From the NCBI RefSeq assembly GCF_000429925.1, contig NZ_AUCU01000019.1, positions 52,544 to 116,105 of the forward strand: DNA of 63,562 nucleotides. The letters are read 5' to 3'. Shown in pieces: positions 40,588-53,251 of this stretch. Made by a program: the position numbers and the translations under genes. This DNA is from Desulfatirhabdium butyrativorans DSM 18734 (GTDB lineage Bacteria; Desulfobacterota; Desulfobacteria; Desulfobacterales; Desulfatirhabdiaceae). Numbering within the stretch: the stretch's first letter is position 1; each line of letters opens with the position of its first letter. A model generated the notes under the pieces. That model saw nothing but the letters and a program-made list of their open reading frames with translations, did not search any database and was not told the DNA's origin.

Positions 40588-43500
40588 ATGCAGAGAGAAT
40601 CCGGCAAAACGTTTGTTCTGTTTTCGATATGGGCGTGTCTGCTGGCTTTTGTATTGCCTTCCAGGGGCACGTGCGCCAGCCTGAGCGATTTTCAACAGGA
40701 TGTGCTTTTTTTTTCCGACCTGCGGGATCGAAGCACGGGGACACCCGGGTGCAAGAAGGCTTCGGCTTACATTCAATCCCGCTTTGAAGCAGCCGGGCAC
40801 AGCGAGATCGGCGTGCACCGGTATGCCGTTCCGGTCATGATTCACGAGCAGAGCGTGCTCGCATTCTCTGATTCGGCCTCGCCTCTCCCCATCCATCCTT
40901 TCTTCGGCAACATCATCACGCCTCAGGCCATCGGACCGGAAGGACTCAGCGGCCGGCTTGTCTATGTCGGCCGCGGAGGGCTTTCGGAGATGAATGGCAA
41001 AACCATCGAGGGGGCCATTCTGTTGATGCGTCTCGATTCGGGGAAATCCTGGATTCAGGCTGCCGATCTCGGTGCAAAGGCCATCATTTACCTCTCCGAC
41101 AGCCTGGGCGGAAGGTTCGTGTTCGAGGACAAGATCGAGCTGAGCCCGTTTCATTTTCCCCGATTCTGGATGACTGCTGCAGAGGCCAGGGCGCTATTCG
41201 GCGCTTTCGAGGAGAGCGGCAATCAGCCGGTGCTGCCTTCCGTTACACTGAGAAGCGCGGTATCCTGGAAAAAAGTCACTGCGGACAATGTGTATTGCCT
41301 GATCCCCGGGACAGACGAAAACCGTTCCGAAGAGCTCATCGTGATCGAGGCTTTTTACGACAGCACGGCGTATGTGGCGGGGCTTTCTTCTGGTGCGGAC
41401 GAAGCCTGCGGCATTGCCACCCTCCTGCAGATCGCCAGGGATCTGAAGAAATTTCCACCGGCCCGATCGGTGCTGCTTGTGGCGACAAGCGGGCACGCGC
41501 AGGGGCTTGCCGGTATGCGGGAATTTGTCTGGAGCATTCGCGCCTCTTCCAAAGTGCTGCGATCCGACCAGAAAAAATACCGGGACCTGGTGCGTGATAC
41601 ACGCAAAACCATCAACTTGATTTCCCGGATGATGGAAACCGGGGGGCCGCTGATTGCGCCGGAAGAGAAAACGGATGCCCTGCTGGTTCAAAACGCCGTT
41701 TCGGAGGAGATCAAGACGGCCGTGGATGCGCTTTCCCGTGAGCTCATGCGCCTTCGCCTCGAAGGCGCGGCCGACGATGCCCGGATTCGCTCTCTTGCGC
41801 AAGAGCGGCTGCTGTTGCGCCGAATGAGCTGGAGCAGGGGGATTTCGGAATTCGATTCGACAGAAATGACCGCCTATCGGGCGTTGCTTCCCCAGACGGT
41901 CAAACGGCAGAAGGCCATTCTGTCGGATGCTTTGCTGGCTCAGCGTGTTCTGGGCTCCAGTCAGGAACTTCGGACATTGGTCGGTGCAAAAGAAGTGGCC
42001 GCCATCGTTTCCCTGCATCTTTCCAGTCATGGGTCGGGGTTTGGGGCTTTCAGCCAGGGATGGCGATATCCGCTGAAATCTTCGGTAAACCGGAGTGCTG
42101 TCTATCGAATTGCAGGGGAGCGGATGCGTGAGACGGCAGCCGGGCTTGGCCTGAGCCTCTATCAGGATACCTTTCGGCCTGAAAGTCTCTTCGCCTGGCA
42201 AAGCTATCTGATGGATCGACCCGCCCTCAACGGCGAGGTGAGCGCACTTGCCGGGTATCTCGGATGGACACTGGCAACGATCAACGACGGCCGGATGCGC
42301 TGGGGTACGCCTGAAGACATTATCGGTTACATCGACTGGGAATTTGCCCAGACCCAGGCAATTGAGATCTCAAGCCTCATGCGGCACCTGAATGGTGTTG
42401 GCCCGCTTCATGACGAAGATCTGCCTCAGAACGGGTTCGCATCGATTCGTGGACAGGCCAAATTCATCCGCCACGGTGAATTGTTTCCGGACCAGCCTGC
42501 ACCTGGAACCGTCGTTCTCGCATTCCAGGGCCTGAGCCGAATCCATGCGATGGTGGATGCCACGGGTTCCTTTTTTCTCCACGGGGTTGCCGACAAGCGG
42601 AACGTTCTCGACAAGGTGATCCTGGAAGGGTATCGCTTCGATCCACAGAGCGGGCAGGCCGTGTGGGCCATCGACAAGGAGAAAACCGGCAAGAACGCGT
42701 ATCGGATGAAAATGGATCGGCTGAACATGCAAACCGATCTGGTGATGTTCGGCTGCAGGCAAACGACGCTGTTCGACCTTCTCGATCCCCGCAATTTCAA
42801 TTACTTGACGAAGATTCAACTGCTCGATGCCCGCAGGGAAGCCCCCCCGCTCCGGTACTGGTTCAGCCGGATCGATACCCGCTCCTCGGTGCTGACCTCC
42901 GTGTTTCTGGAGCCTGGGACACGGCTGAAGGTGCTGTTGTCCGATTCCATTGTCCGGAAAAAATGCATACTCACCCATGCCGACGCAGCCCATCCCGAAG
43001 GCACGGGTTATCGGATCGATGAATTTCCCGGTATATGCCGGACTTCTTTTCAGACGGCAAGGGACATGTGGTCCTTGCTTGGGCCGAGAATCGACAATTT
43101 GCGATTTCATGGTATTGTCAGCGAACAGATCGACAAGATGCGGGCGGAAGGCCAACGAGCATTGACGCAGGCTCAAGAGGCCATAGACGCCAAAGCCTAT
43201 GACCGGTTCTTTGCCGCAGCCGCGACTTCCTGGGCGCTGGCGGCACGGGTTTACGATGATGTGGAAAAAACCCAGAAAGACGTCCTGTTCGGGGTCCTTT
43301 TCTACATCGCATTGTTTGTGCCGTTCGCTTTCTGTCTCGAAAGGCTCGTTCTCGGATTGGTGAACATCTATTATCGGATTCTGGCCTTTCTGGTCATTCT
43401 GCTGGTTTTGATCGGCGTTGTCTATCTGGTGCATCCGGCTTTTCGGCTGGCCTACAGTCCTGTTGTCGTGATTCTGGCCTTTTTCATCATCGGCTTGTCC

Positions 43501-45462
43501 GCCATGGTGACGGTGATCCTTTTTGTCCGCTTCGAAACCGAAATGGCCCGATACCAGAAAACCGCCTCGTCTCATCTGAATGTCGATATGAGCCGCTGGA
43601 AAGCCTTTGCCGCAGCCTTTCTTCTGGGGGTGAGCAACCTGCGAAGACGTCCCATCCGTACAGCCCTGACCTGCATTACCCTTGTCATTCTCACCTTTAC
43701 CATCATGAGCTTTACGACCGCCAAATCGGTCCGGCTCTATCAGCGAGCGAAAGTGGCCGATTCATCTCCTTATGCCGGTTTTCTGGTAAAGGCCGCCGAG
43801 TGGCGCGATCTTCCGGAGAGCAGCCTGCCGGTTCTCGATGCGACCCTGAAAGGAAATGGCCGGGTCATCAATCCGAGGGTATGGCTGGAAGCGGAGGATC
43901 GGACAAAAGCCCTTCGCATTCCGGTTTCGTATCGCGACCGGATGTTTGAAGCCCAGGCAATTGTCGGGCTTTCCGGGGATGCATTGGCGCCGGATCAGCT
44001 TCGGGATATCCTGGTCGGCGGAAAGTGGCTGGAGGACTCGGATCAGTCGGCCGTGATGATTCCGGAGCGGATGGCGCTGGAGCTGGGAATTCCCCCCGCC
44101 CATCCGCAAGGGACCAGTGTGATTCTCTGGGGGATGGTCTTCGAAGTGAAAGGCGTTTTTTCCGAAAACGCCTTTGAGAAATTGACCGACCTGGACGGAG
44201 AGCCCTGGACGCCGGTTATTTTTCCCAGAGAGCAGGCGGAAGACATGGGCGAGGCGGAAATGGAAGCCATCGAATCCGGTGAAGATGTGCAATCGTTTCA
44301 GAGCCGCTATGTGCATATTCCCGCCGGTCTCTCCCTGATGATGCCCTATCGGACGTTGATGGCATCCGGCGGGAAACTCAAGAGCGTTTCGGTGCGGGCC
44401 GCTGGAACCGATCCGGATACATTCTCCATGCGCGATCTGAGCGACCGCTTCGGCCTTCTGCTGTTCAGCGGGGGAAAGGATGGGGTCTATCTGTACCATG
44501 CAAGCGATACCATCGATTACAGTGGGGTGCCCAACATTCTCATCCCGATGATCATATCCGTCTGCATCGTGCTCAACACCATGATCAGCAGCGTTTACGA
44601 AAGAAAGCGGGAAATCGCCGTCTATACATCGATCGGGCTTGCGCCCTCTCACGTCGGTTTTCTCTTCATTGCGGAGGCAATGGCATTTGCGGTTCTGAGC
44701 GGTGTCATCGGTTATCTCATCGCCCAGACCAGCGCAGGCATTCTCTCCAAGACCAGCCTATGGGCCGGGATCACCGTGAACTATTCCTCCCTGGCCGGGG
44801 TGGCCGCAATGATCCTCGTGATGGCCGTGGTCGTCGTCTCCGCCCTCTATCCGGCCAGGATGGCATCGCAGATTGCCATTCCGGATGTCAATCGTTCCTG
44901 GAGCCTGCCTGCCGCCGTCGGAAACCGGCTCCAGGTTGATCTGCCGTTTCTGATGAAATATGAAGAGCACCGGAGTATCGTGGGATTCATCGCGTCCTAT
45001 TTCGAGGCCTACCGGGATGTTTCACACGGCATGTTCTCTACGGGAGACATGCATTTTTCATCCGTCTGCTCGACACCTGCAGGTCTGGTGCGCATGGATC
45101 ACGCATGCCGGGGGGCTGCGTGCTGCGACCTCGCGTGTATCGTTCTCCATACCCATGTGTGGCTTGCACCTTTTGATTTCGGCATCATGCAGGACGTTGA
45201 AATCCGATTCTGTCAGGCCATCAAGGATCCCGGATATCTGCAGATCGTTGTCAGTATGATCCGAAAATCCGGAGAAGTGAATGCCTGGCTCCGGATCAAC
45301 CACGCTTTCCTGCACGGATTGAGAAAGCAACTGCTTGTCTGGCGCTCGCTCGATTCCGAAGCCCATTTGCATTACGAAAGGCTGCTTGAACAGCGGTGGC
45401 TGTCGGCCGGGTCCGCCATCGCTTCCGAACAAATGCATGGGTGCATCGAAAAAAAGGCTTGA
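40588..45462 (+). CDS. Giant FtsX/MacB-type permease with degenerate M28 peptidase-like periplasmic domain
   Basis: The 1624-residue protein has a signal sequence (about residues 7-30), a PA-like insert near 125-175 and an M28 aminopeptidase-like domain to about 600. Metal-binding positions are altered: the usual AHYDS is AFYDS (Phe256, Asp258), and the GAEEQG glutamates are SGHAQG (residues 301-306). A helix cluster follows at about 895-985, then an FtsX permease (helix near 1020, MacB-like periplasmic part, helices near 1310-1440 with NTMISSVYERKREIAVYTSIGL). The last 190 residues are a soluble, Cys-rich cytoplasmic domain I do not recognise. The substrate is unknown. Confidence 0.85.
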   Translation: MQRESGKTFVLFSIWACLLAFVLPSRGTCASLSDFQQDVLFFSDLRDRSTGTPGCKKASAYIQSRFEAAGHSEIGVHRYAVPVMIHEQSVLAFSDSASPLPIHPFFGNIITPQAIGPEGLSGRLVYVGRGGLSEMNGKTIEGAILLMRLDSGKSWIQAADLGAKAIIYLSDSLGGRFVFEDKIELSPFHFPRFWMTAAEARALFGAFEESGNQPVLPSVTLRSAVSWKKVTADNVYCLIPGTDENRSEELIVIEAFYDSTAYVAGLSSGADEACGIATLLQIARDLKKFPPARSVLLVATSGHAQGLAGMREFVWSIRASSKVLRSDQKKYRDLVRDTRKTINLISRMMETGGPLIAPEEKTDALLVQNAVSEEIKTAVDALSRELMRLRLEGAADDARIRSLAQERLLLRRMSWSRGISEFDSTEMTAYRALLPQTVKRQKAILSDALLAQRVLGSSQELRTLVGAKEVAAIVSLHLSSHGSGFGAFSQGWRYPLKSSVNRSAVYRIAGERMRETAAGLGLSLYQDTFRPESLFAWQSYLMDRPALNGEVSALAGYLGWTLATINDGRMRWGTPEDIIGYIDWEFAQTQAIEISSLMRHLNGVGPLHDEDLPQNGFASIRGQAKFIRHGELFPDQPAPGTVVLAFQGLSRIHAMVDATGSFFLHGVADKRNVLDKVILEGYRFDPQSGQAVWAIDKEKTGKNAYRMKMDRLNMQTDLVMFGCRQTTLFDLLDPRNFNYLTKIQLLDARREAPPLRYWFSRIDTRSSVLTSVFLEPGTRLKVLLSDSIVRKKCILTHADAAHPEGTGYRIDEFPGICRTSFQTARDMWSLLGPRIDNLRFHGIVSEQIDKMRAEGQRALTQAQEAIDAKAYDRFFAAAATSWALAARVYDDVEKTQKDVLFGVLFYIALFVPFAFCLERLVLGLVNIYYRILAFLVILLVLIGVVYLVHPAFRLAYSPVVVILAFFIIGLSAMVTVILFVRFETEMARYQKTASSHLNVDMSRWKAFAAAFLLGVSNLRRRPIRTALTCITLVILTFTIMSFTTAKSVRLYQRAKVADSSPYAGFLVKAAEWRDLPESSLPVLDATLKGNGRVINPRVWLEAEDRTKALRIPVSYRDRMFEAQAIVGLSGDALAPDQLRDILVGGKWLEDSDQSAVMIPERMALELGIPPAHPQGTSVILWGMVFEVKGVFSENAFEKLTDLDGEPWTPVIFPREQAEDMGEAEMEAIESGEDVQSFQSRYVHIPAGLSLMMPYRTLMASGGKLKSVSVRAAGTDPDTFSMRDLSDRFGLLLFSGGKDGVYLYHASDTIDYSGVPNILIPMIISVCIVLNTMISSVYERKREIAVYTSIGLAPSHVGFLFIAEAMAFAVLSGVIGYLIAQTSAGILSKTSLWAGITVNYSSLAGVAAMILVMAVVVVSALYPARMASQIAIPDVNRSWSLPAAVGNRLQVDLPFLMKYEEHRSIVGFIASYFEAYRDVSHGMFSTGDMHFSSVCSTPAGLVRMDHACRGAACCDLACIVLHTHVWLAPFDFGIMQDVEIRFCQAIKDPGYLQIVVSMIRKSGEVNAWLRINHAFLHGLRKQLLVWRSLDSEAHLHYERLLEQRWLSAGSAIASEQMHGCIEKKA

Positions 45463-45488
45463 CACCTGTTTTTTGATCGTGGTAGGGA
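45459..45488 (+). promoter_or_regulatory. Candidate promoter of the aromatic leader
   Basis: A perfect -35 (TTGACA, 45459-45464) overlaps the stop codon of the giant permease gene. An 18-bp spacer leads to a poor -10 (TAGGGA, 45483-45488). Its placement about 40 bp ahead of the leader peptide suits an attenuator. The weak -10 keeps confidence modest. Confidence 0.4.
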
Positions 45489-45527
45489 TGGCACACTTCA
45501 AATCAAGGAGATTTTCGGGCGATTTTT

Positions 45528-45623
45528 ATGGAACAGTTTCAGGCAGCCAATCGATTTTTTTATTTTAACTGGTACTTTTATTACTGGTTTCGCACCGGTC
45601 TGCCTGGGGAAATGCTGACATAG
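45528..45623 (+). CDS. Aromatic-amino-acid leader peptide (31 aa)
   Basis: The ORF reads MEQFQAANR, then FFYFNWYFYYWF, then RTGLPGEMLT and TAG. Codons 10-21 encode five Phe, four Tyr, two Trp and one Asn: 11 aromatic residues in 12. This is far beyond chance and is the hallmark of a leader peptide whose translation reports aromatic aminoacyl-tRNA supply, like pheL or trpL, but covering all three amino acids. The ribosome site is weak or distant (AAGGAG 17 bp ahead; GGGCG closer). Downstream are two terminators and five aromatic biosynthesis genes. It is too short for ordinary gene finding. Confidence 0.9.
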   Translation: MEQFQAANRFFYFNWYFYYWFRTGLPGEMLT

Positions 45624-45646
45624 ACAATCCGAGATCAACGTACAGC

Positions 45647-45680
45647 AAAAGCCGTGGGCAGACCAAGCCCACGGCTTTTT
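45647..45680 (+). terminator. Attenuator terminator 1
   Basis: The stem AAAAGCCGTGGGC (45647-45659) pairs with GCCCACGGCTTTT (45667-45679) around the 7-nt loop AGACCAA and ends in a run of five T. Its loop and upper stem overlap the antiterminator partner of the leader ORF. Confidence 0.92.
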
Positions 45681-45686
45681 GATTTC

Positions 45687-45731
45687 AAAAGGCCGTGAAG
45701 CAAAAACCGCTTTCATGGCCTTTTTCGTTTT
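45687..45731 (+). terminator. Attenuator terminator 2
   Basis: AAAAGGCCGTGAAGC (45687-45701) pairs with GCTTTCATGGCCTTTT (45709-45724), with one bulged T, a G-U pair and a 7-nt loop. TTTTTCGTTTT follows. Its ascending strand can pair instead with the descending strand of terminator 1. Confidence 0.85.
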
Positions 45732-45753
45732 GGTCTTGATCATGATTCAGGCC

Positions 45754-45789
45754 GGCTGCAGGGGCGACCGGCCGGTCGCCCCTGCAGCC
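45754..45789. repeat. 36-bp perfect G+C palindrome
   Basis: GGCTGCAGGGGCGACCGG (45754-45771) is followed at once by its exact reverse complement (45772-45789), 18 + 18 bp with no spacer. It is between attenuator terminator 2 and the first aromatic gene. It may be a dispersed palindrome; no second copy is seen in this window. The remaining leader (45790-45927) shows nothing I can assign. Confidence 0.9.
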
Positions 45790-45927
45790 TATTCCACGGG
45801 CCGAGACACCATGCGCCGTGTCTTTATGGTCACGTGGCCGAATGGATGATCATGGCTTTCGTTTATGGGGAATGCGGCAGGTCGGTCGATTCATTCATCA
45901 CAGTCAACGAGGGGAAGGGGAAAAGTC

Positions 45928-46746
45928 ATGACAGAATTGGGCAAGCATATCCGGATGGAGCGCATCATGAACCGAAACACCGGAACAACCGTCATTGTTC
46001 CGATGGATCACGGGATGTCGGTCGGACCCATCCGGGGGCTGACGGACATGAAAACGGCCATTCAGAAAGTGGCGGAAGGAGGGGCCAATGCCATCGTCGA
46101 GCACAAGGGGCTTGTGCGGGCAGGGCATCGGGGGCAGGGAAGAGACATCGGGCTGATCGTTCACCTGTCGGCTTCGACATGCCTTTCGCTGTATCCCAAC
46201 GCGAAGACGCTGGTCTGCACCGTTGAGGAAGCCATCAAGCTGGGCGCCGACGCCATCTCCATTCATGTGAACCTCGGGAATGGCTACGAGAAGGAAATGC
46301 TGAAGGATTTCGGCAGGATCAGCTACGAAGCCCGAACCTGGGGGATGCCGCTTCTGGCGATGATCTATCCGAGGGGGGAAAACATTACGAGCGAGTTCGA
46401 CGTGGAAGTCATCCGGCATGCGGCTCGTGTCGGCGATGAAATGGGTGCGGATATCGTCAAGGTTTCCTACACCGGTTCATCCGAAACCTTTCGTCAGGTT
46501 GTCTCGGGCTGTTCCATTCCGGTGGTCATTGCAGGCGGGCCCAAGATGTCCAATGATCTCGAAGTGCTTGAAATGGTAAAGGGAGCGATGGATGCCGGAG
46601 GCGCGGGCGTTTCCATCGGCAGAAACGTCTTTCAGCACGCCGATCCGACCGCGATGGTCCGGGCCATTGCCGCAATCGTCCACGATGGGGTCGATGTCGA
46701 TGCCGCAACCGGTATTTTGAAACGGACGGGGCGGGGGGGCGCATGA
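45928..46746 (+). CDS. 2-amino-3,7-dideoxy-D-threo-hept-6-ulosonate (ADH) synthase
   Basis: From the ATG at 45928 (AAGGGG ahead) the protein has 272 residues. It is a class I aldolase of the DeoC/FbaB type: [17 protein letters not shown] near residue 23, [18 protein letters not shown], and [11 protein letters not shown] with the likely Schiff-base Lys near residue 180. In archaea this enzyme makes the C7 precursor that replaces DAHP at the start of the shikimate route. The next gene encodes DHQ synthase II, its known partner, which argues against a glycolytic aldolase. It is the first gene of the operon. Confidence 0.92.
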
Positions 46747-47738
46747 ACCGGAATCTTTGGGTGAAGATCGATCCCTGGAACAAGGAGATGGTGACCACAG
46801 CCATCGAATCGGGCGCGGATGCCGTGATGGTGCCGGAAGGATATGCCGAGCGGGTGAGGGAGCTGGGAAGGATCGTGACCATTGCACCCGATGGCGATCT
46901 CAAACCCGGCCAGGATGTGCTCTGCTGTACCATCGCCTGCCAGGAGGACGAACCGGAGATTTTGCGGCTGTGCCGGGATTATCGCGTAATCCTCGAATGT
47001 CCGGACTGGACCGTCATCCCGCTCGAAAACCTGATCGCCCAGAATGCATCCGTTGTCGTTCCGGTCAAATCCATCGAAGAGGCTGAGACGGCCCTGGGCA
47101 TCCTCGAAAAAGGCGTGGATCATCTGCTGGTTGAAGCGCAAAGCCCGGAAGCGCTCCGGAGCATGCTGCTCAAACTGCGCAGTACCGATGAAACTCTGGA
47201 TCTGCAGATCGGCCGCATCGCGTCCATCCGGCCCGTCGGCATGGGCGATCGTGTCTGTGTGGATACCTGCAGCCTGATGCGGCCCGGCGAGGGGCTGCTG
47301 GTTGGCAACAGCAGTTCGGGCTTGTTTCTGATCCATGCGGAAACCCTTCAGAACCCCTATGTTTCCCCGCGACCTTTCCGGGTGAACGCAGGTCCGGTTC
47401 ATGCCTACACCCGGATGCCGGGCGGAAAAACCGCTTATCTGGCCGATCTTCAGGCGGGAGAAACGGTGCTGGTTGTCGATGCCGGCGGGAAAACCCGGCC
47501 TGCCGTCGTCGGCAGGATCAAGATCGAGCGAAGGCCACTGATGATGATCACTGCAACGGTTGAAGATCGAACGATTTCGGTTCTGGTTCAGAATGCCGAG
47601 ACGATCCGGCTGACACGGCCCAATGGCAGTGCGGCATCGGTCGTCGAGCTGCAGCAGGGGGACGAAATTCTGGTTCGGGTGGAAAATGGAGGCAGACATT
47701 TTGGACACGCCATTTCGGAGACGATCATCGAAACATGA
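46743..47738 (+). CDS. 3-dehydroquinate synthase II
   Basis: The 331-residue enzyme oxidatively deaminates and cyclises the ADH product to 3-dehydroquinate. It begins [22 protein letters not shown] and has [18 protein letters not shown] near residue 187, [20 protein letters not shown] near 204, and [20 protein letters not shown] near 257, all familiar from the archaeal enzyme. It is unrelated to bacterial AroB. It overlaps both neighbours by 4 bp. Its presence means the classical AroF/AroB steps are bypassed. Confidence 0.94.
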
Positions 47739-48823
47739 ACGAAGAAACAGCCCTTCAGACCTTGCGTCTTCAAATCGACGAGATCGACGCCCGCATACTC
47801 GATCTGATCAACCAGAGACTGTGTCTGGCCCGTGAAATCGGTGCGCTCAAATCCAGATCCGGTTCGAAAATCCTGGATGTGAGCCGGGAAAAGCGCATTT
47901 TCGAGCGGTTGAAGTCGATCAACCAGGGTGTTTTGCATCCCGAAGTCCTCCATCATGTGTTTACCGAAATCATTGCCGCATGCCGGGAGATTCAGGGGCC
48001 GGTGACCGTGGCATATCTGGGTCCGGAAGGGACATTCACCCATGCGGCCGCCATCCGGCAATTCGGACACATGGCCCGATTGGTTCCCCTGCCCAGCATT
48101 GCGGAGGTCTTTTCACGGGTGGAGAAAGGCGGGGTCGGCTACGGCGTCGTTCCGGTGGAGAATTCCGTGGAAGGACCGGTCAGTGTGACGCTCGATCTCC
48201 TGCTGGAAACCGATGCGAATATCCTGGCCGAAATCTATCTCGATATCTCCCATGACCTGTGGGCTGCGAGCGAAGAGCTCTCGGCGGTCTCGGAGGTCTA
48301 TTCGCATCCGCAGGCCCTGGCCCAGTGCCGAAGATGGCTTGCGGCAAACCTGCCTGTGGCCGTATGCGTGGCATGTGACAGCACGGCTTCGGCTGCAGGG
48401 CTGGCGGCGCAAAAGACGAACGCTGCAGCCATTGCCGGGCGGGAAGCCGCGGAGAAATGGGGGCTTCGAAGGCTTGCCGCAGGCATCGAGGACTGCGGCA
48501 GGAATACGACCCGATTTCTCGTCATCGGAAAAGATGCGCCCAAGCCGAGCGGCAAGGACAAAACATCGCTCGTATTCGCTACGGCCCATGTTCCGGGTGC
48601 GCTCTACCGGGTTCTCGAGCCGCTGAATGCGATTGGCGTCAACATGGTGAAACTGGAATCGAGACCGGCCCGAACCGCCAACTGGACGTATCATTTCTTC
48701 GTGGATATCGAAGGGCACATCGCCGATCCGAAAATCGAACGGGTGCTCGACGAGCTGAAACAGCGCACCATGTTCGTTCGATGGCTGGGTTCCTATCCGA
48801 GCGCCGGAGCCAACGGGCAATGA
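47735..48823 (+). CDS. pheA: Bifunctional chorismate mutase / prephenate dehydratase (P-protein)
   Basis: The 362-residue enzyme converts chorismate via prephenate to phenylpyruvate. Residues about 5-85 are an AroQ-type chorismate mutase (LRLQIDEIDARILDLINQRL, VSREKRIFERL). Residues about 90-265 are the dehydratase (VAYLGPEGTFTHAAA, VPVENSVEGPVSVTLDLL, NTTRFLVIG). A C-terminal ACT domain with KLESRPARTANWTYHFFVD should bind phenylalanine for feedback inhibition. The operon is therefore controlled at enzyme level here and, by inference, at transcription through the leader. It overlaps both neighbouring genes by 4 bp. Confidence 0.96.
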   Translation: MNEETALQTLRLQIDEIDARILDLINQRLCLAREIGALKSRSGSKILDVSREKRIFERLKSINQGVLHPEVLHHVFTEIIAACREIQGPVTVAYLGPEGTFTHAAAIRQFGHMARLVPLPSIAEVFSRVEKGGVGYGVVPVENSVEGPVSVTLDLLLETDANILAEIYLDISHDLWAASEELSAVSEVYSHPQALAQCRRWLAANLPVAVCVACDSTASAAGLAAQKTNAAAIAGREAAEKWGLRRLAAGIEDCGRNTTRFLVIGKDAPKPSGKDKTSLVFATAHVPGALYRVLEPLNAIGVNMVKLESRPARTANWTYHFFVDIEGHIADPKIERVLDELKQRTMFVRWLGSYPSAGANGQ

Positions 48824-49659
48824 AAATCGATGCAGCGACATCGCTCTATGCCGTGTTCGGCAATCCGGTCGAACATAGCCTGAGTCCGGAAATTTTCAAT
48901 GCGGCATTCGAAGCGGCAGGGATTCCAGCCATATATCTGGCCTTCCGGGTCGATGATATCGGCCGGGGGGTGGAGGCGATCCGGGCGCTCGGCATCCGGG
49001 GGGCGAGCGTCACCATCCCACACAAGCAGCGCCTGATGCGCCATCTGGATGAAATCGATCCATCGGCCTTGCGGATCGGAGCCGTGAACACGGTGCTCGC
49101 GCGGGAGGGGAATCTCATCGGGTATAACACGGATGGCCTGGGCGCGATGCTCGCCCTGAAGACGAAGACTCGACTTTGCGGGAAAAGGGTTCTGCTGATC
49201 GGCGCGGGCGGCGCCGCCCGTGCAATCGGTACGGTTCTCGTCGAGGAGGGATCGGAGCTCAGTATTGCCAATCGGAGCGAGGCCAGGGGGCGGATGCTGT
49301 GCGAAGCATTAGGGGCCACCTGGTGTCCCCCCGGGGATATCGAAGGCGGGCATTTCGATATCCTGATCCAGACGACGCCTGTCGGCATGTGGCCTGGCGG
49401 GATCGATGCGTCTCCCGTCAGCCCGTCCCTGTTTCGGCCCGGCATGATCGTCATGGATATTGTTTATGTCCCGGAAGAAACCCGATTTCTGAGGGATGCC
49501 CGTCAGGCCGGCTGCACCACCATTGCCGGTTCGGAAATGTTCCTGCATCAGGCAGCGGCCCAGTTCGAACGCTGGACACAGAGACCTGCGCCAATCGATA
49601 TCATGCGTTCAGCCTTGCAGGAAGGGCTCCGCAGCCGCATGGAGAGACTTCGATCATGA
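48820..49659 (+). CDS. aroE: Shikimate dehydrogenase
   Basis: From the ATG at 48820, which overlaps the pheA stop (ATGA), the protein has 279 residues. It reduces 3-dehydroshikimate with NADPH. Signatures are VFGNPVEHSLSPEIFNAAF near residue 12, the catalytic Lys in SVTIPHKQRLMRHLD, GAVNTVLAREGNLIGYNTD, and the Rossmann motif LLIGAGGAARAIG near 126. The end (AGSEMFLHQAAAQFERWTQRPAP) is typical. The open frame upstream is the shadow of pheA. Confidence 0.95.
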   Translation: MKIDAATSLYAVFGNPVEHSLSPEIFNAAFEAAGIPAIYLAFRVDDIGRGVEAIRALGIRGASVTIPHKQRLMRHLDEIDPSALRIGAVNTVLAREGNLIGYNTDGLGAMLALKTKTRLCGKRVLLIGAGGAARAIGTVLVEEGSELSIANRSEARGRMLCEALGATWCPPGDIEGGHFDILIQTTPVGMWPGGIDASPVSPSLFRPGMIVMDIVYVPEETRFLRDARQAGCTTIAGSEMFLHQAAAQFERWTQRPAPIDIMRSALQEGLRSRMERLRS

Positions 49660-50927
49660 TCCGCATTTTCCCCACCAGACTATCGCACCAGCGTATCCGG
49701 GTTCCGGGCTCCAAAAGTTACACCCATCGCAGCCTGATTGCAGCGGCCCTTGGTGATGGTCCCTGCACGATCGGCAACCCGCTTTTCAGCCAGGACACCA
49801 TTTTGACTGCGGATGCCTTGCAGCAGATGGGGGTCGCCATCGAGCGTACGGATGATGCCTGGGTTGTTCACGGAAACGAAGGCCGTATCGGTTCCTGCGG
49901 CCATCCGATTTATTTGGGCAATTCGGGCACATCGATGCGCCTTCTGACGGCAGTTGCGGCATTGTCGGCGGGTCCCGTCGTTCTCACCGGAAATGCGCGC
50001 ATGCAGCAGCGGCCCATCGACGATTTGCTGCAGGGTCTCAGACGTCTGGGGATCGATGCGGCATCCTGCCAGCCGGGCGGATGTCCGCCGGTTCGCATTT
50101 CGGGCGGACCGATCCGGGGAGGAGCGATTGAAATCGATTGCAGCAAAAGCAGCCAGTTTCTGTCGGCACTGCTGCTGGCGGCGCCCTGCACGGCGGAGGG
50201 CATGCGCATTCAGGTGCTGGGAGACCCGGTCTCCAAACCCTATATCGATATGACCCTCCATGTGATGTCGGATTTTGGCATCGCCTGCAGCCGCAGCGGA
50301 TACGGCGAATTCGTGGTGCCCGGCGCCCAGCGCTACCACCGGGAAAGGTACAGTGTCGAGCCGGATGCTTCCCAGGCCGGATACTTCTGGGCTGCGGCAG
50401 CCATTACCGGCGCCCGGATTCTGGTGGAGGGAATGACCCTGAATTCCAGGCAGGGGGATGTCCGATTCGTTCGTCTTCTGGAGGCAATGGGCTGCAGCGT
50501 TGTGCAGGAGGAGGATGCGATCGGCATTGCGGGCGGAGGGGCGCTTCGGGCAATCGATGTGGACATGAGCGCCATGCCCGATCTGGTCCCGACCCTGGCG
50601 GTTGTGGCGGCCTTTGCCGAAGGAAAGACGACCGTCCGGAACGTCTCCCATCTTCGGATCAAGGAAAGTGATCGTCTGGCTGCAACCATCGACAATCTGG
50701 AGCGGATGGGAATTCGGGCGAGCACCGACGGATCGGATCTGGAGGTATGGGGCGGAGAACCGCATGGGGCGCTCATCAAAACCTGCGACGATCACCGAAT
50801 GGCCATGAGTTTCGCCATGGCCGGATTGATTACGCCAGGGATCGTGATCGACGAGGAAACGTGTGTCGGAAAATCGTTTCCGGATTTCTGGAAGGTTTTG
50901 AAATCGATGGGGGTAGGTATTGCCTGA
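49656..50927 (+). CDS. aroA: 5-enolpyruvylshikimate-3-phosphate synthase
   Basis: From the ATG at 49656, overlapping the aroE stop, the protein has 423 residues. It makes EPSP from shikimate-3-phosphate and PEP. Signatures are RVPGSKSYTHRSLIAAAL near residue 16, LGNSGTSMRLLTAVAAL near 86, RPIDDLLQGLRRLG, and RIKESDRLAATIDNLERMG near 335, with CDDHRMAMSFAMAG near 375. The PGSKSYTHR and LGNSGTS forms will decide its glyphosate class. The last codons (VGIA, stop) lie within inverted-repeat element IR-E, so the natural C-terminus may have been altered by its insertion. Confidence 0.95.
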   Translation: MIRIFPTRLSHQRIRVPGSKSYTHRSLIAAALGDGPCTIGNPLFSQDTILTADALQQMGVAIERTDDAWVVHGNEGRIGSCGHPIYLGNSGTSMRLLTAVAALSAGPVVLTGNARMQQRPIDDLLQGLRRLGIDAASCQPGGCPPVRISGGPIRGGAIEIDCSKSSQFLSALLLAAPCTAEGMRIQVLGDPVSKPYIDMTLHVMSDFGIACSRSGYGEFVVPGAQRYHRERYSVEPDASQAGYFWAAAAITGARILVEGMTLNSRQGDVRFVRLLEAMGCSVVQEEDAIGIAGGGALRAIDVDMSAMPDLVPTLAVVAAFAEGKTTVRNVSHLRIKESDRLAATIDNLERMGIRASTDGSDLEVWGGEPHGALIKTCDDHRMAMSFAMAGLITPGIVIDEETCVGKSFPDFWKVLKSMGVGIA

Positions 50928-51045: not shown

Positions 51046-51061
51046 CAGTAGGCATCGGCGA

Positions 51062-51337
51062 ATGAGCGTGTTCGACTATTTCATCCAGACATCGGGCAGC
51101 CGGATTTGCCCGGTTGGCAACATCCTACCCCGGGAAGCGGCCGACCCGGCACGGCTCGCTCGGGCTCTGGAAAAAATGGCGCTTGCGCGATCAGGCATCA
51201 TTCCCAAACGGTTGCCGATCCGGGTCGTCAGTGTTTCAAACGGCGGCTATCGGGTGGTTGACGGCAACACGACCTATCATGCGTTGGTCGCACTTGGTGA
51301 AACAAATGGACTTGTCGAAATGGTCGAAGACAGATGA
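51062..51337 (+). CDS. Small ParB/sulfiredoxin-like protein (91 aa)
   Basis: From the ATG at 51062 the protein has 91 residues. RLPIRVVSVSNGGYRVVDGNTTYHALVALGE resembles the ParB/sulfiredoxin core, in which an [IV].DG..R/..AL turn binds nucleotide, but the usual Arg after DGN(H) is not clear. An ATP- or CTP-binding function is only a suggestion. The ribosome site is weak. Its upstream region is IR-E, so its expression may depend on the aromatic operon or the repeat. Confidence 0.6.
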   Translation: MSVFDYFIQTSGSRICPVGNILPREAADPARLARALEKMALARSGIIPKRLPIRVVSVSNGGYRVVDGNTTYHALVALGETNGLVEMVEDR

Positions 51338-51349
51338 TGCATTGCAGGA

Positions 51350-53251
51350 TCAACAAGCGCACGCCTTCTCTTCCGGCTCGACGGCATCATCGAAGTCCAT
51401 GAGGATGGTCACATCGCTTCCGCCGGTCATCAGGATGCGGGCATGGGGGTAGCGCTTCTTGAATACGTGGATCATGGCCGTGTTTTCTTTGAGCACCGAA
51501 GCCACAAAGCCCTTGTAACGGTTTTCCTTGGCGATCCCTTCGAGAATCTTCAACAGGATGGAGCATACCCCAAGCCCCTGAAAGTCTTCCCGCACGACGA
51601 ATGCCACCTCGGCCCGCTGCTCCTGCTCTTCCGCATAGGAGCCGATGGCCATGATTTCCCTGCTGCCCCCTCTCTGTGTCAGGCCGATGATGGACATGTT
51701 CTTGCGGTAATCGACACTGGCCCATTGTTTCTGAACCATTTCATGGGAAAAGATTTTGATCTTGTAGAAGAATCTCCGGTAGATGGTTTCTTCCTGGAGG
51801 GAGTAGAAGAAGTTGCGGTAGGAGAACTCATCCGATGAAAGCAGCGGGCGAAATTCGATGTTCTTCCCATTGCGGAGGGTGACGGTGCTGCGATATCCTT
51901 CGAGGAAGAGCAAATCTTCCTGGACGGGAGGCAGTTGATCCTGGAAGATGTAGTGCCGCGATTTGGCAATGTCGATCAGCTCTTCCCGGAATTTCGGATG
52001 GGAAATCTGGGCCAGTTCCATGACCCGCTGGTAGATGCTCTTTCCTTTGAGTTCCGCAATCCCGTATTCGGTGACAATGAAGTTGACGTCGCCCCGGGTG
52101 GTGGCGACCCCTGCCCCTTCGCTGAGATGGGGGACGATCCGGCTGACCGTTCCTTTTCGGGCGGTTGACGGCAGGGCGATGATGGAAAAACCGCCCTTCG
52201 ACATGGCCGAGCCCCGAAGAAAGTCCACCTGGTCGCCGATACCGCTGTAAAACAGATAACCCATGGAGTCCGTGCTGACCTGCCCCGTAAGATCGACTTC
52301 CAGCGCCGAGCTGATCGAGACGAGGTTGTCGTTCCGGGCGATGACGGTCGGATCGTTCACGAATTCCGATGATCGGAAATAGAAAACGGGGTTGTTGTCC
52401 ACAAAGCGATAAATGGCATCGGTTCCCATGCACAGGGAGGCGACCACCCGGCCGGGAAGCAGGGATTTTTTCCGGTTGGTGATGACCTTTTTTTCAAAGA
52501 GGGGCAGCATGCCATCCGTGATGACCTGGGTATGGATCCCCAAATCCTTTTTGCCGTCCAGATACGGCAGGATCGCATTGGGCAGGTTCCCGAATCCGAT
52601 CTGCAGGGTGACACCGTCATCGACGAGCTGGGAGACAAAATGTCCGATGCGGCGAATCAGCTCCGGATCGTATTCCCGGTTGGTCATTTCGACGATGGGT
52701 TCTTCATGATACACGAGATAATCGATATCATCGATATGGACGAAACTGTCTCCCCATGTCCTGGGTACGCTCGGGTTGATCTGGGCGATGACCATGCGGG
52801 CGTTTTCCATCCCTGCGCGGGTGATGTCCACGGAGACCCCGAGGCTGCAATAGCCGTATTTGTCGGGCGGGCTGACCTGGATGAGGGCCACATCGAGGCC
52901 GATGCGGTGACTGGCAAACAACCTCGGTATCTGGCTCAGATATGCCGGAATATAGTCGATCCACCCCTGGAATGCAGCCTCGCGCATTTGGCGGCTGATG
53001 AAAAAGAGCTTCAGGGAGAAACGGTTCCGGAACATTTCGTCTGCGATATAGTCGGCCAGGGTAAAGGACATCATCTGATAGACCATGATGTCCTGCAGAT
53101 TGATGTCGCTGACCATCGTTCGGATCAGGTGCTGCGGCTCACCGCATCCTGTTCCGATGAAAACCCGGCTGCCTTTGCGGATGTGCGAGATGGCCTCTTC
53201 CGCGCTGACCAGCTTGTAATTGCCGTTTTCAATTCCTTCCATGACTGTCAC
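51350..53251 (-). CDS. Acetyl-CoA hydrolase/CoA-transferase family protein with C-terminal GNAT domain
   Basis: The 633-residue cytoplasmic protein has a two-part CoA-transferase domain (residues about 15-435: GTGCGEPQHLIRTMV, VSPPDKYGYCSLGVSVD, FGNLPNAIL, then YSGIGDQVDFLRGSAMSKGG and VTEYGIAELKGKS). A GNAT acetyltransferase follows (about 460-620: YRRFFYKIKIFSHEMVQKQ, VAFVVREDFQGLGVCSILLKIL). Such proteins exchange CoA between short-chain acids; the GNAT half may acetylate the enzyme or another target. The fusion is recurrent in Desulfobacterota and Geobacter as I recall. It is convergent with the small gene at 51062. Confidence 0.9.
   Translation of the reverse strand: MTVMEGIENGNYKLVSAEEAISHIRKGSRVFIGTGCGEPQHLIRTMVSDINLQDIMVYQMMSFTLADYIADEMFRNRFSLKLFFISRQMREAAFQGWIDYIPAYLSQIPRLFASHRIGLDVALIQVSPPDKYGYCSLGVSVDITRAGMENARMVIAQINPSVPRTWGDSFVHIDDIDYLVYHEEPIVEMTNREYDPELIRRIGHFVSQLVDDGVTLQIGFGNLPNAILPYLDGKKDLGIHTQVITDGMLPLFEKKVITNRKKSLLPGRVVASLCMGTDAIYRFVDNNPVFYFRSSEFVNDPTVIARNDNLVSISSALEVDLTGQVSTDSMGYLFYSGIGDQVDFLRGSAMSKGGFSIIALPSTARKGTVSRIVPHLSEGAGVATTRGDVNFIVTEYGIAELKGKSIYQRVMELAQISHPKFREELIDIAKSRHYIFQDQLPPVQEDLLFLEGYRSTVTLRNGKNIEFRPLLSSDEFSYRNFFYSLQEETIYRRFFYKIKIFSHEMVQKQWASVDYRKNMSIIGLTQRGGSREIMAIGSYAEEQEQRAEVAFVVREDFQGLGVCSILLKILEGIAKENRYKGFVASVLKENTAMIHVFKKRYPHARILMTGGSDVTILMDFDDAVEPEEKACAC

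Follow-up and report, generated by a model that had tools for sequence, protein, structure and literature searches.

The window, by which we mean the whole 63,562-nucleotide stretch of Desulfatirhabdium butyrativorans DSM 18734 DNA analysed here (contig NZ_AUCU01000019.1, positions 52,544 to 116,105), contains an aromatic operon of five genes:

45928-46746, plus strand: 2-amino-3,7-dideoxy-D-threo-hept-6-ulosonate synthase (ADH synthase; TIGR01949 above cut-off)
46743-47738, plus strand: 3-dehydroquinate synthase II
47735-48823, plus strand: chorismate mutase/prephenate dehydratase (pheA)
48820-49659, plus strand: shikimate dehydrogenase (aroE)
49677-50927, plus strand: EPSP synthase (aroA)

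A preliminary description of this DNA spoke of five overlapping genes; this holds for the first four, which overlap by 4 nt, while aroA begins 17 nt past aroE. The 94-amino-acid ORF 3' of aroA (51053-51337) has no family match and may be a sixth operon gene. Further along, 51350-53251 on the minus strand encodes a CoA-transferase/hydrolase fused with a GNAT acetyltransferase domain, and directly upstream of the leader region a 1624-amino-acid ORF (40588-45462) joins an M28 peptidase domain to an FtsX-like permease domain.

Ahead of the operon lies a short ORF, one of whose segments of codons is dominated by aromatic residues:

45528-45623, plus strand: leader peptide ORF of 31 codons, stop codon TAG at 45621-45623

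It translates to MEQFQAANRFFYFNWYFYYWFRTGLPGEMLT. Eleven of the residues encoded by codons 10-21 (45555-45590) are aromatic (five Phe, four Tyr and two Trp), the remaining one being Asn. We scanned 1,061,959 bases (related loci plus the window) in six frames for 12-codon stretches with at least nine aromatic residues. Nearly all such stretches lie upstream of the operon's first gene, the exceptions being five places (four in locus L041, one in L042), and the only one in the window is the leader ORF itself. We have dropped the idea of a chance ORF, since such aromatic stretches are too rare elsewhere in the scanned bases. A sigma-70 scan of window positions 45350-45950 returned no sigma-70-like promoter; a TTGACA is present at 45459, with a poor -10 element. 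Among the 88 loci with a leader (defined below), 22 have promoter-like pairs of another pattern just 5' of it, compared with 0.53 expected.

The leader ORF overlaps and precedes a set of RNA segments with mutually exclusive pairing partners, all on the plus strand:

45540-45546, plus strand: segment 1 (CAGGCAG), pairing with 45600-45606
45597-45606, plus strand: segment 2, with segments 1 and 3 as alternative partners
45613-45617, plus strand: segment 2b (UGCUG), directly 5' of the leader stop codon, as seen in the sequence
45643-45647, plus strand: segment 3a (CAGCA), partner of 2b, nested within 2:3
45648-45680, plus strand: terminator 1 (hairpin 3:4) with a T run; the hairpin covaries in relatives
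45655-45664, plus strand: segment 3, common to antiterminator 2:3 and terminator 1
45670-45681, plus strand: segment 4, whose partner is segment 3 in terminator 1 and segment 5 in the second antiterminator
45686-45701, plus strand: segment 5, pairing with segment 4 or segment 6
45687-45725, plus strand: terminator 2 (hairpin 5:6) with a T run; the hairpin covaries in relatives

The aromatic leader, the two terminators and the pairings given in the preliminary description are all present in the sequence. The 1:2 pairing is CAGGCAG with CTGCCTG; 2:3 comprises eight base pairs and two G-U pairs (45597-45606 with 45655-45664), and 4:5 twelve base pairs closed by a 4-nt loop (45670-45681 with 45686-45697). 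Segment 2 codes for the conserved TGLP part of the leader peptide. An extra helix inside 2:3 had been overlooked: UGCUG at 45613-45617 with CAGCA at 45643-45647 (2b:3a). Folded as sub-stretches, the helices reach -20.5 kcal/mol for 1:2 (inner stem included), -29.0 for 2:3 (extra helix included), -20.5 for 3:4, -19.4 for 4:5 and -20.3 for 5:6, and the folding of 45500-45760 beats 200 of 200 shuffles (z -4.63).

No Rfam family reaches its gathering score in the window or on the attenuators of the 18 loci searched, and a known riboswitch or T-box was dropped on the grounds that nothing matched at gathering. The nqrA-II family overlaps the attenuator of locus L217 at 40.9 bits (gathering score 55). 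The trpB motif RF04312, described from Firmicutes and Fusobacteria (PMC11109978), scored 19.9 bits with an E-value of 4.4 against a gathering score of 59 bits and was rejected.

About 200 nt separate terminator 2 from the ADH synthase gene, and within them lies a palindrome:

45754-45789, no strand assigned: perfect palindrome GGCTGCAGGGGCGACCGGCCGGTCGCCCCTGCAGCC

The 4.48 Mb genome has 109 copies of the 20-nt core of this palindrome, up to two mismatches being allowed, and none of the reversed-pattern control; the palindrome belongs to a dispersed palindromic repeat family. Two related loci, L012 and L059, carry different inverted-repeat inserts at the same spot.

To follow the element beyond this genome we used relatives of the operon's first gene, present in 40 of 57 related genomes with distant homologues included. 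The preliminary description had proposed a search of relatives for aromatic-rich mini-ORFs and compensatory changes, and both were found. An aromatic-rich leader is present in all 30 returned loci (at least 68% identity), L013 being judged by eye and L029 being the weakest. From at least 586 named matches the best 80 were added, which gave 110 loci; eight are duplicates by leader sequence, leaving 102 distinct loci. An ORF with at least five aromatic residues in 12 codons precedes the first gene in 94 of them, and with six doubtful ORFs removed (L041, L063, L084, L093, L097, L100) an aromatic-rich leader is accepted in 88 of the 102. Eight loci are without an accepted ORF (L040, L042, L080, L095, L102, L103, L106, L110); for L040, L080, L095 and L106 less than 125 nt of upstream DNA is present. 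In L042 an in-frame stop codon breaks the aromatic run and both hairpins are kept, which may point to leader decay or to an error in sequencing. Tandem hairpins were parsed in 66 of the 88 leader loci. Of the other 22, which were sorted out manually, 16 count as single-terminator (by eye; they include Desulfobacca and Syntrophobacterales, and two are Desulfobacteraceae) and six as odd (L033, L055, L060, L099, L104, L107). With the misparsed L052 left out of the tests, 65 two-hairpin loci remain.

Phe and Tyr codons are found in 88 of 88 of these leaders and Trp codons in 60, counting the whole leader. The preliminary reading of one leader with Phe, Tyr and Trp codons is backed by this comparison; Trp sensing by ADH-synthase leaders would be common but not universal, as Trp is missing from 28 of the 88. 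Across the 88 leaders Phe is encoded by TTT 281 times and by TTC 26 times, and Tyr by TAT 337 times and by TAC 84 times; the counts in the window genes examined are 56 TTT, 60 TTC, 47 TAT and 27 TAC.

We also built a covariance model from hairpins 3:4 and 5:6 only; the hairpins being palindromic, it also gives opposite-strand matches. Of 241 genomes sampled in the class, every one from the same family or order, 237 have a match at a loose E-value of at most 0.01, and 74 of 198 genomes across the phylum have one at 1e-6 or below. In the window's own genome two places are strong: the aromatic operon and the stretch directly 5' of trpE. The trpE leader reads MATISVQSTTSEARCWWCWRTVSRGIAGDA and contains no aromatic residue other than Trp. 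Six other matches in this genome, opposite-strand copies aside, have E-values of 0.04 to 0.74.

Within the order we read 81 places (L159 plus 20 plus 60), a selection from the matches listed. Every one of the 66 fetched matches with E-values up to 2e-5 lies ahead of a gene for the metabolism or transport of amino acids or aromatic acids, and 65 of the 66 have a fitting leader, hand-picked from several candidate ORFs per locus. Above 2e-5, two of 15 matches precede a fitting gene, and the 13 matches that lack a fitting downstream gene (L233-L241, L243, L245-L247) all fall in this range.

Sixty-eight of these order places precede such genes; 65 have a gene other than ADH synthase, and leaders are listed for 62 of the 65. 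Trp leaders precede trpE (23), trpC (1), trpD (3) and TrpB-like genes (2), all 29 with at least two Trp codons. The 12 leaders of B. subtilis-type DAHP synthase genes divide into seven Phe, four Trp and one Tyr, while mixed aromatic leaders stand before four aroFGH DAHP synthase genes and one pheA, and a Tyr leader before one tyrS. Phe leaders precede nine phenylacetate-CoA ligase (PaaK) genes and two Liv-type binding protein genes. One leuA-like gene has a Leu leader. Two aminotransferase genes (L192, L231) are preceded by leaders with runs of seven and six Ala codons and by two hairpins, which makes them candidate alanine-sensing attenuators; in L231 the 4:5 pairing has an internal mismatch. 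A TRAP binding protein gene (L225) has a YYWWW leader and two hairpins, a candidate for a Trp-controlled TRAP transporter. Of the remaining three loci, two (L206, L223) were judged by eye to have a Phe-rich leader; in L200 the gene is present and a clean leader is missing. Profiles named twenty of these genes, several below cut-off, partly because the stretches end inside the gene; L159 was named by Pfam and the rest by eye from gene starts. The transporters and phenylacetate-CoA ligase are genes for which the fit of codon and gene cannot be judged beforehand.

The 40 places read elsewhere in the phylum (L248-L287; nine profile-checked, the others by eye) show the same kinds of genes and leaders as the order. 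They include PRK06836-type aminotransferases with Phe/Tyr leaders and an acetolactate synthase (L283) whose best leader candidate contains ISLVLIVV. Phe-rich leaders before PaaK or Liv-type genes were seen in L172, L182, L195, L207, L213, L215, L218, L222 and L224, and further in L190, L196 and L265. These leaders hint that the PaaK and Liv-type genes serve Phe formation or aromatic-acid uptake, not breakdown.

Copies of one enzyme within a genome may carry different codes. DAHP synthase copies have Trp and Phe leaders in G040 (L203, L226) and Phe and Tyr leaders in G048 (L228, L232), the enzyme in both genomes being of the B. subtilis type, and mixed and Trp leaders in G015 (L205, L230) and G218 (L173, L210). 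These codes recall the feedback-specific isozymes of E. coli (PMC5343134). ADH synthase paralogues provide a further case: five of the 20 paralogous upstream regions read have a Phe-dominated leader with one terminator. The main operon fetched from G034 and from G041 lacks pheA, a gene that in these genomes adjoins the second ADH synthase gene under the Phe-dominated leader; in G027, G033 and G053 the main operon retains pheA, and none lies beside the paralogue in the fetched stretch (L131, L132, L134). Several more main operons have no pheA match in their stretch. A cobalamin riboswitch was seen far downstream in one relative's contig (L069, 12840-13022).

An aromatic-rich peptide could also act as such. 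In nascent-peptide arrest, of which TnaC is an example, the aromatic peptide would stall its ribosome on binding an aromatic compound, and tRNA charging would not be sensed. The aromatic-rich peptides and their recurrent C-terminal TGLP stretch would suit this. However, that C-terminal stretch is segment 2, and it differs in the trp, PaaK and DAHP-synthase groups while the 2:3 pairing persists; residue order and spacing vary among the peptides; and the Ala, Trp-only, Tyr-rich and Phe-rich versions match their genes, which suits codon sensing. We regard arrest by the peptide as very unlikely.

We probed the coevolution of the helices with a partner-swap test that compares the duplex energy of a locus's own segment pair with that of pairs exchanged between loci. 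Three sets were used: 50 representatives (first-gene identity below 88%) of the 65 ADH-synthase loci; 48 representatives of 60 order loci with other genes, with some misparsed hairpins left in (e.g. L175); and a phylum set of 39 of the 40 loci. L211 and L232 had been set aside as single-hairpin, and L182, L190, L205 and L276 failed parsing. For the ADH-synthase representatives the swap z-scores are -9.3 for 1:2, -8.6 for 2:3, -4.4 for 2b:3a, -12.2 for 3:4, -7.9 for 4:5 and -13.6 for 5:6, the own pair being better than the median swap in 50 of 50 loci for 1:2 and in 37 of 50 for 2b:3a. The two antiterminators score -11.6 (2:3) and -7.9 (4:5) in the order set and -11.3 and -4.7 in the phylum set.

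Controls were needed because hairpins 1 and 2 have a common core sequence. In the ADH-synthase set the control pairs score -2.7 (3:6), -1.8 (4:6), -1.0 (3:5), -0.9 (2:5) and -0.1 (3a:6); in the order set -4.0 (3:6), -2.0 (3:5), -1.2 (4:6) and +1.9 (2:5); and in the phylum set -2.8 (3:6), -2.4 (4:6), -0.8 (3:5) and +0.9 (2:5). The like-for-like control for 4:5 is 3:6, whose signal in the ADH-synthase set is much smaller but not absent; as 3:6 lies above chance in all three sets, shared composition or relatedness may account for some of the 4:5 signal. Alignment columns give a similar picture. In the 4:5 columns 91.5% of cells are paired (88.2±0.5 when shuffled) with 22 two-sided changes (6.9±2.1), in the 3:6 columns 90.5% (89.2±0.5) with eight (3.9±1.6), and in the columns of the two hairpins 95.6% (89.5±0.5) with 57 (13.9±3.2); both the swap test and the column counts leave some sequence relatedness in the signal. 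These comparisons support the coevolution of every proposed helix, 4:5 included, with controls that are not fully silent.

A competing design is an ordinary four-segment attenuator (1:2, 2:3, 3:4) followed by a back-up terminator 2, a duplicate kept as insurance or relic, with 4:5 having no role. The GCCGTGG core that terminators 1 and 2 have in common in most loci fits such an origin, as do the above-chance 3:6 signal and the leaders that are single-terminator by eye, namely sixteen ADH-synthase loci and the five Phe-type paralogues. However, if 4:5 played no part, terminator 2 would keep polymerase out of the operon even after terminator 1 had been opened, and the coevolution of 4:5 exceeds that of 3:6 in all three sets. 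The distribution of T runs bears on the same question. Both hairpins have one in 51 of 65 ADH-synthase, 51 of 60 other order and 34 of 39 phylum loci; hairpin 2 alone has one in 11, four and two loci, respectively, and hairpin 1 alone in three, five and three. Where only hairpin 2 has the T run, control should go via 4:5. In the 11 ADH-synthase loci so scored 4:5 retains 7 to 12 pairs, and it is better than the locus's own mean swap in just seven of the 11. Two of these, L006 and L098, resemble artefacts of the parsing, which leaves about nine loci; L027 is closely related to L066 (Desulfobotulus alkaliphilus), and L083 to L092. We judge the back-up design improbable.

Still less probable, and in our view close to negligible, is that the hairpins are ordinary dispersed or intergenic terminators next to a chance ORF. 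A dispersed palindrome does adjoin the element, but conservation, the rarity of such ORFs, coevolution and the specific genomic places of the family all speak against it.

The comparison of relatives reveals a leader, a codon match, hairpins and coevolving alternative helices; the end-product-codon ORF, the terminator with a T run before the first gene and the coevolving, exclusive antiterminator 2:3 that characterize the attenuator class are present. We consider it highly probable, judging from sequence comparison, that the element controls the aromatic operon by ribosome-mediated transcription attenuation and that its six segments form a relay acting on two terminators. Ribosome stalling, its timing and the resulting termination or read-through would then unfold as follows. 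When charged Phe-, Tyr- or Trp-tRNA is scarce, the ribosome would slow on the aromatic run and segment 2 would be free as segment 3 emerges, allowing the long antiterminator 2:3, with 2b:3a inside, to form. Segment 4, left unpaired, would capture the emerging segment 5; neither terminator would form, and the operon would be transcribed. With a ribosome at the stop codon covering up segment 2, terminator 1 would form instead, and polymerases escaping it would encounter 5:6, which could form since segment 4 is occupied. The two-terminator cascade put forward in the preliminary description is backed by the comparison, as 4:5 coevolves.

Folding models add detail to this relay. In snapshots with a ribosome at the first aromatic codons, 2:3 forms upon the emergence of segment 3 in 62 of 65 loci (mean 0.96). 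A ribosome placed at the stop codon hides segment 2, which sets 2:3 to 0 by construction. Once segment 3 is taken, 4:5 forms in 65 of 65 loci (0.98), and with segment 3 free it still exceeds 0.5 in 24 of 65 (0.33). Without a ribosome 2:3 forms in 43 of 65 loci, and 1:2 is thus a weak brake there. The window is among these 43: 2:3 beats 1:2 in its ribosome-free snapshot, so that masking of segment 1 by the stalled ribosome, as put forward earlier, is not clearly the key step. Given the size of a ribosome's footprint, one paused at Trp codon 15 would not be expected to extend to segment 1. Termination would be triggered more clearly by a ribosome that has arrived at the stop codon and covers up segment 2. 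At equilibrium the terminators win in nearly all loci and ribosome states, so the switch must be kinetic. A crude greedy co-transcriptional model tells the two ribosome positions apart only in part: it forms a terminator in 30 of 50 loci with a stalled ribosome, in 47 of 50 with a ribosome at the stop codon and in 36 of 50 without a ribosome. For the window itself the model gives no switch, and the co-transcriptional check suggested in the preliminary description did not reproduce one; the outcome shifts with the barrier. We therefore take neither the equilibrium nor the co-transcriptional folding as proof of the switch.

Leader-peptide attenuation is textbook knowledge for enteric bacteria. 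The closest known relative in design is the enterobacterial his leader, in which A:B, C:D and E:F alternate with B:C and D:E (PMC4046918, PMC10989985). The relay itself therefore has a precedent, and the novelty claims of the preliminary description are partly wrong. Like the his attenuator of Salmonella and E. coli, the element has a leader rich in end-product codons and six segments, and slowing of the ribosome would favour read-through; the his-type set of hairpins (1:2, 3:4, 5:6) and alternatives (2:3, 4:5) is complete, and all five coevolve. In the portions of those sources available to us, uridines are described after E:F only, whereas in the present family a T run usually follows hairpin 3:4 as well, the run being found on both hairpins in those 51 of 65 ADH-synthase loci. 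A hairpin 1 that lacks the T run should serve as a relay only, as in his. Mixed aromatic codons and the extra helix beside the leader stop codon set the element apart from the his leader as these sources present it, as does the recurrence of the module with Trp, Tyr, Phe, Ala, Leu and one branched-chain candidate.

The E. coli pheA leader is a four-segment attenuator with aromatic codons. Together with the four-segment E. coli trp leader (PMC1183508) it resembles the element in its aromatic leader codons, its choice between 2:3 and 3:4 and its pathway; as far as the accessible text goes, these leaders differ in having one intrinsic terminator under control and one amino acid sensed. The preliminary description put the range of known attenuators at one or two sensed amino acids; the Corynebacterium ilvB leader, however, is enriched in Ile, Leu and Val codons (PMC11109978). 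It likewise addresses three related amino acids, but branched-chain ones, and in that excerpt has two stems, one of them the terminator.

Sensing of three related amino acids by one leader is known from ilvGMEDA as well. For the operon itself there is a precedent in another sulfate reducer: a putative attenuator was predicted in 2005 ahead of the Desulfovibrio vulgaris aroA'-aroB'-pheA-aroF-tyrA-trp operon, which has the same leading genes (PMC1173090), and the text consulted does not describe a leader peptide, codon content or tandem design. The small ORF uORFC-13-1 upstream of aroF (24 representatives; PMC8632094) similarly encodes Phe before a DAHP synthase gene and adjoins a terminator; the available text describes one terminator and at least one Phe codon. 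Tandem terminators, with a proposed antiterminator, are also found in the rimP leader of Gammaproteobacteria (PMC2965389), ahead of a different gene, with no amino-acid leader mentioned in the part consulted. Beyond the 2005 prediction we found no earlier report of this attenuator family in the literature searched, in which subscription journals are partly covered. Six-segment logic and multi-amino-acid sensing are precedented; the breadth and the codon exchanges exceed what an ordinary new member would offer.

The element represents a real, conserved and modular attenuator family. The same two-hairpin module, equipped with other leader codons, would serve other amino-acid genes in the phylum. 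We lean towards a phylum-wide, modular two-terminator relay that has been re-addressed in evolution by exchange of leader codons, with a separate code for each isozyme or aromatic branch. Its reach would extend to genes for alanine, leucine and the branched-chain amino acids, and the two terminators would let a single switch leak very little. A relay that passes one signal from the ribosome on to two terminators would be a distinct design, placed ahead of many aromatic genes in this phylum of sulfate reducers and their relatives. The codon exchanges amount to a series of natural experiments in which the RNA frame is constant, the sensor is changed and the gene matches, and they make the reduction of leak or sharpening of the response by the second terminator directly testable. 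Leader codons may, in turn, permit guesses at the roles of poorly known genes such as those for phenylacetate-CoA ligase and for TRAP or Liv-type transporters.
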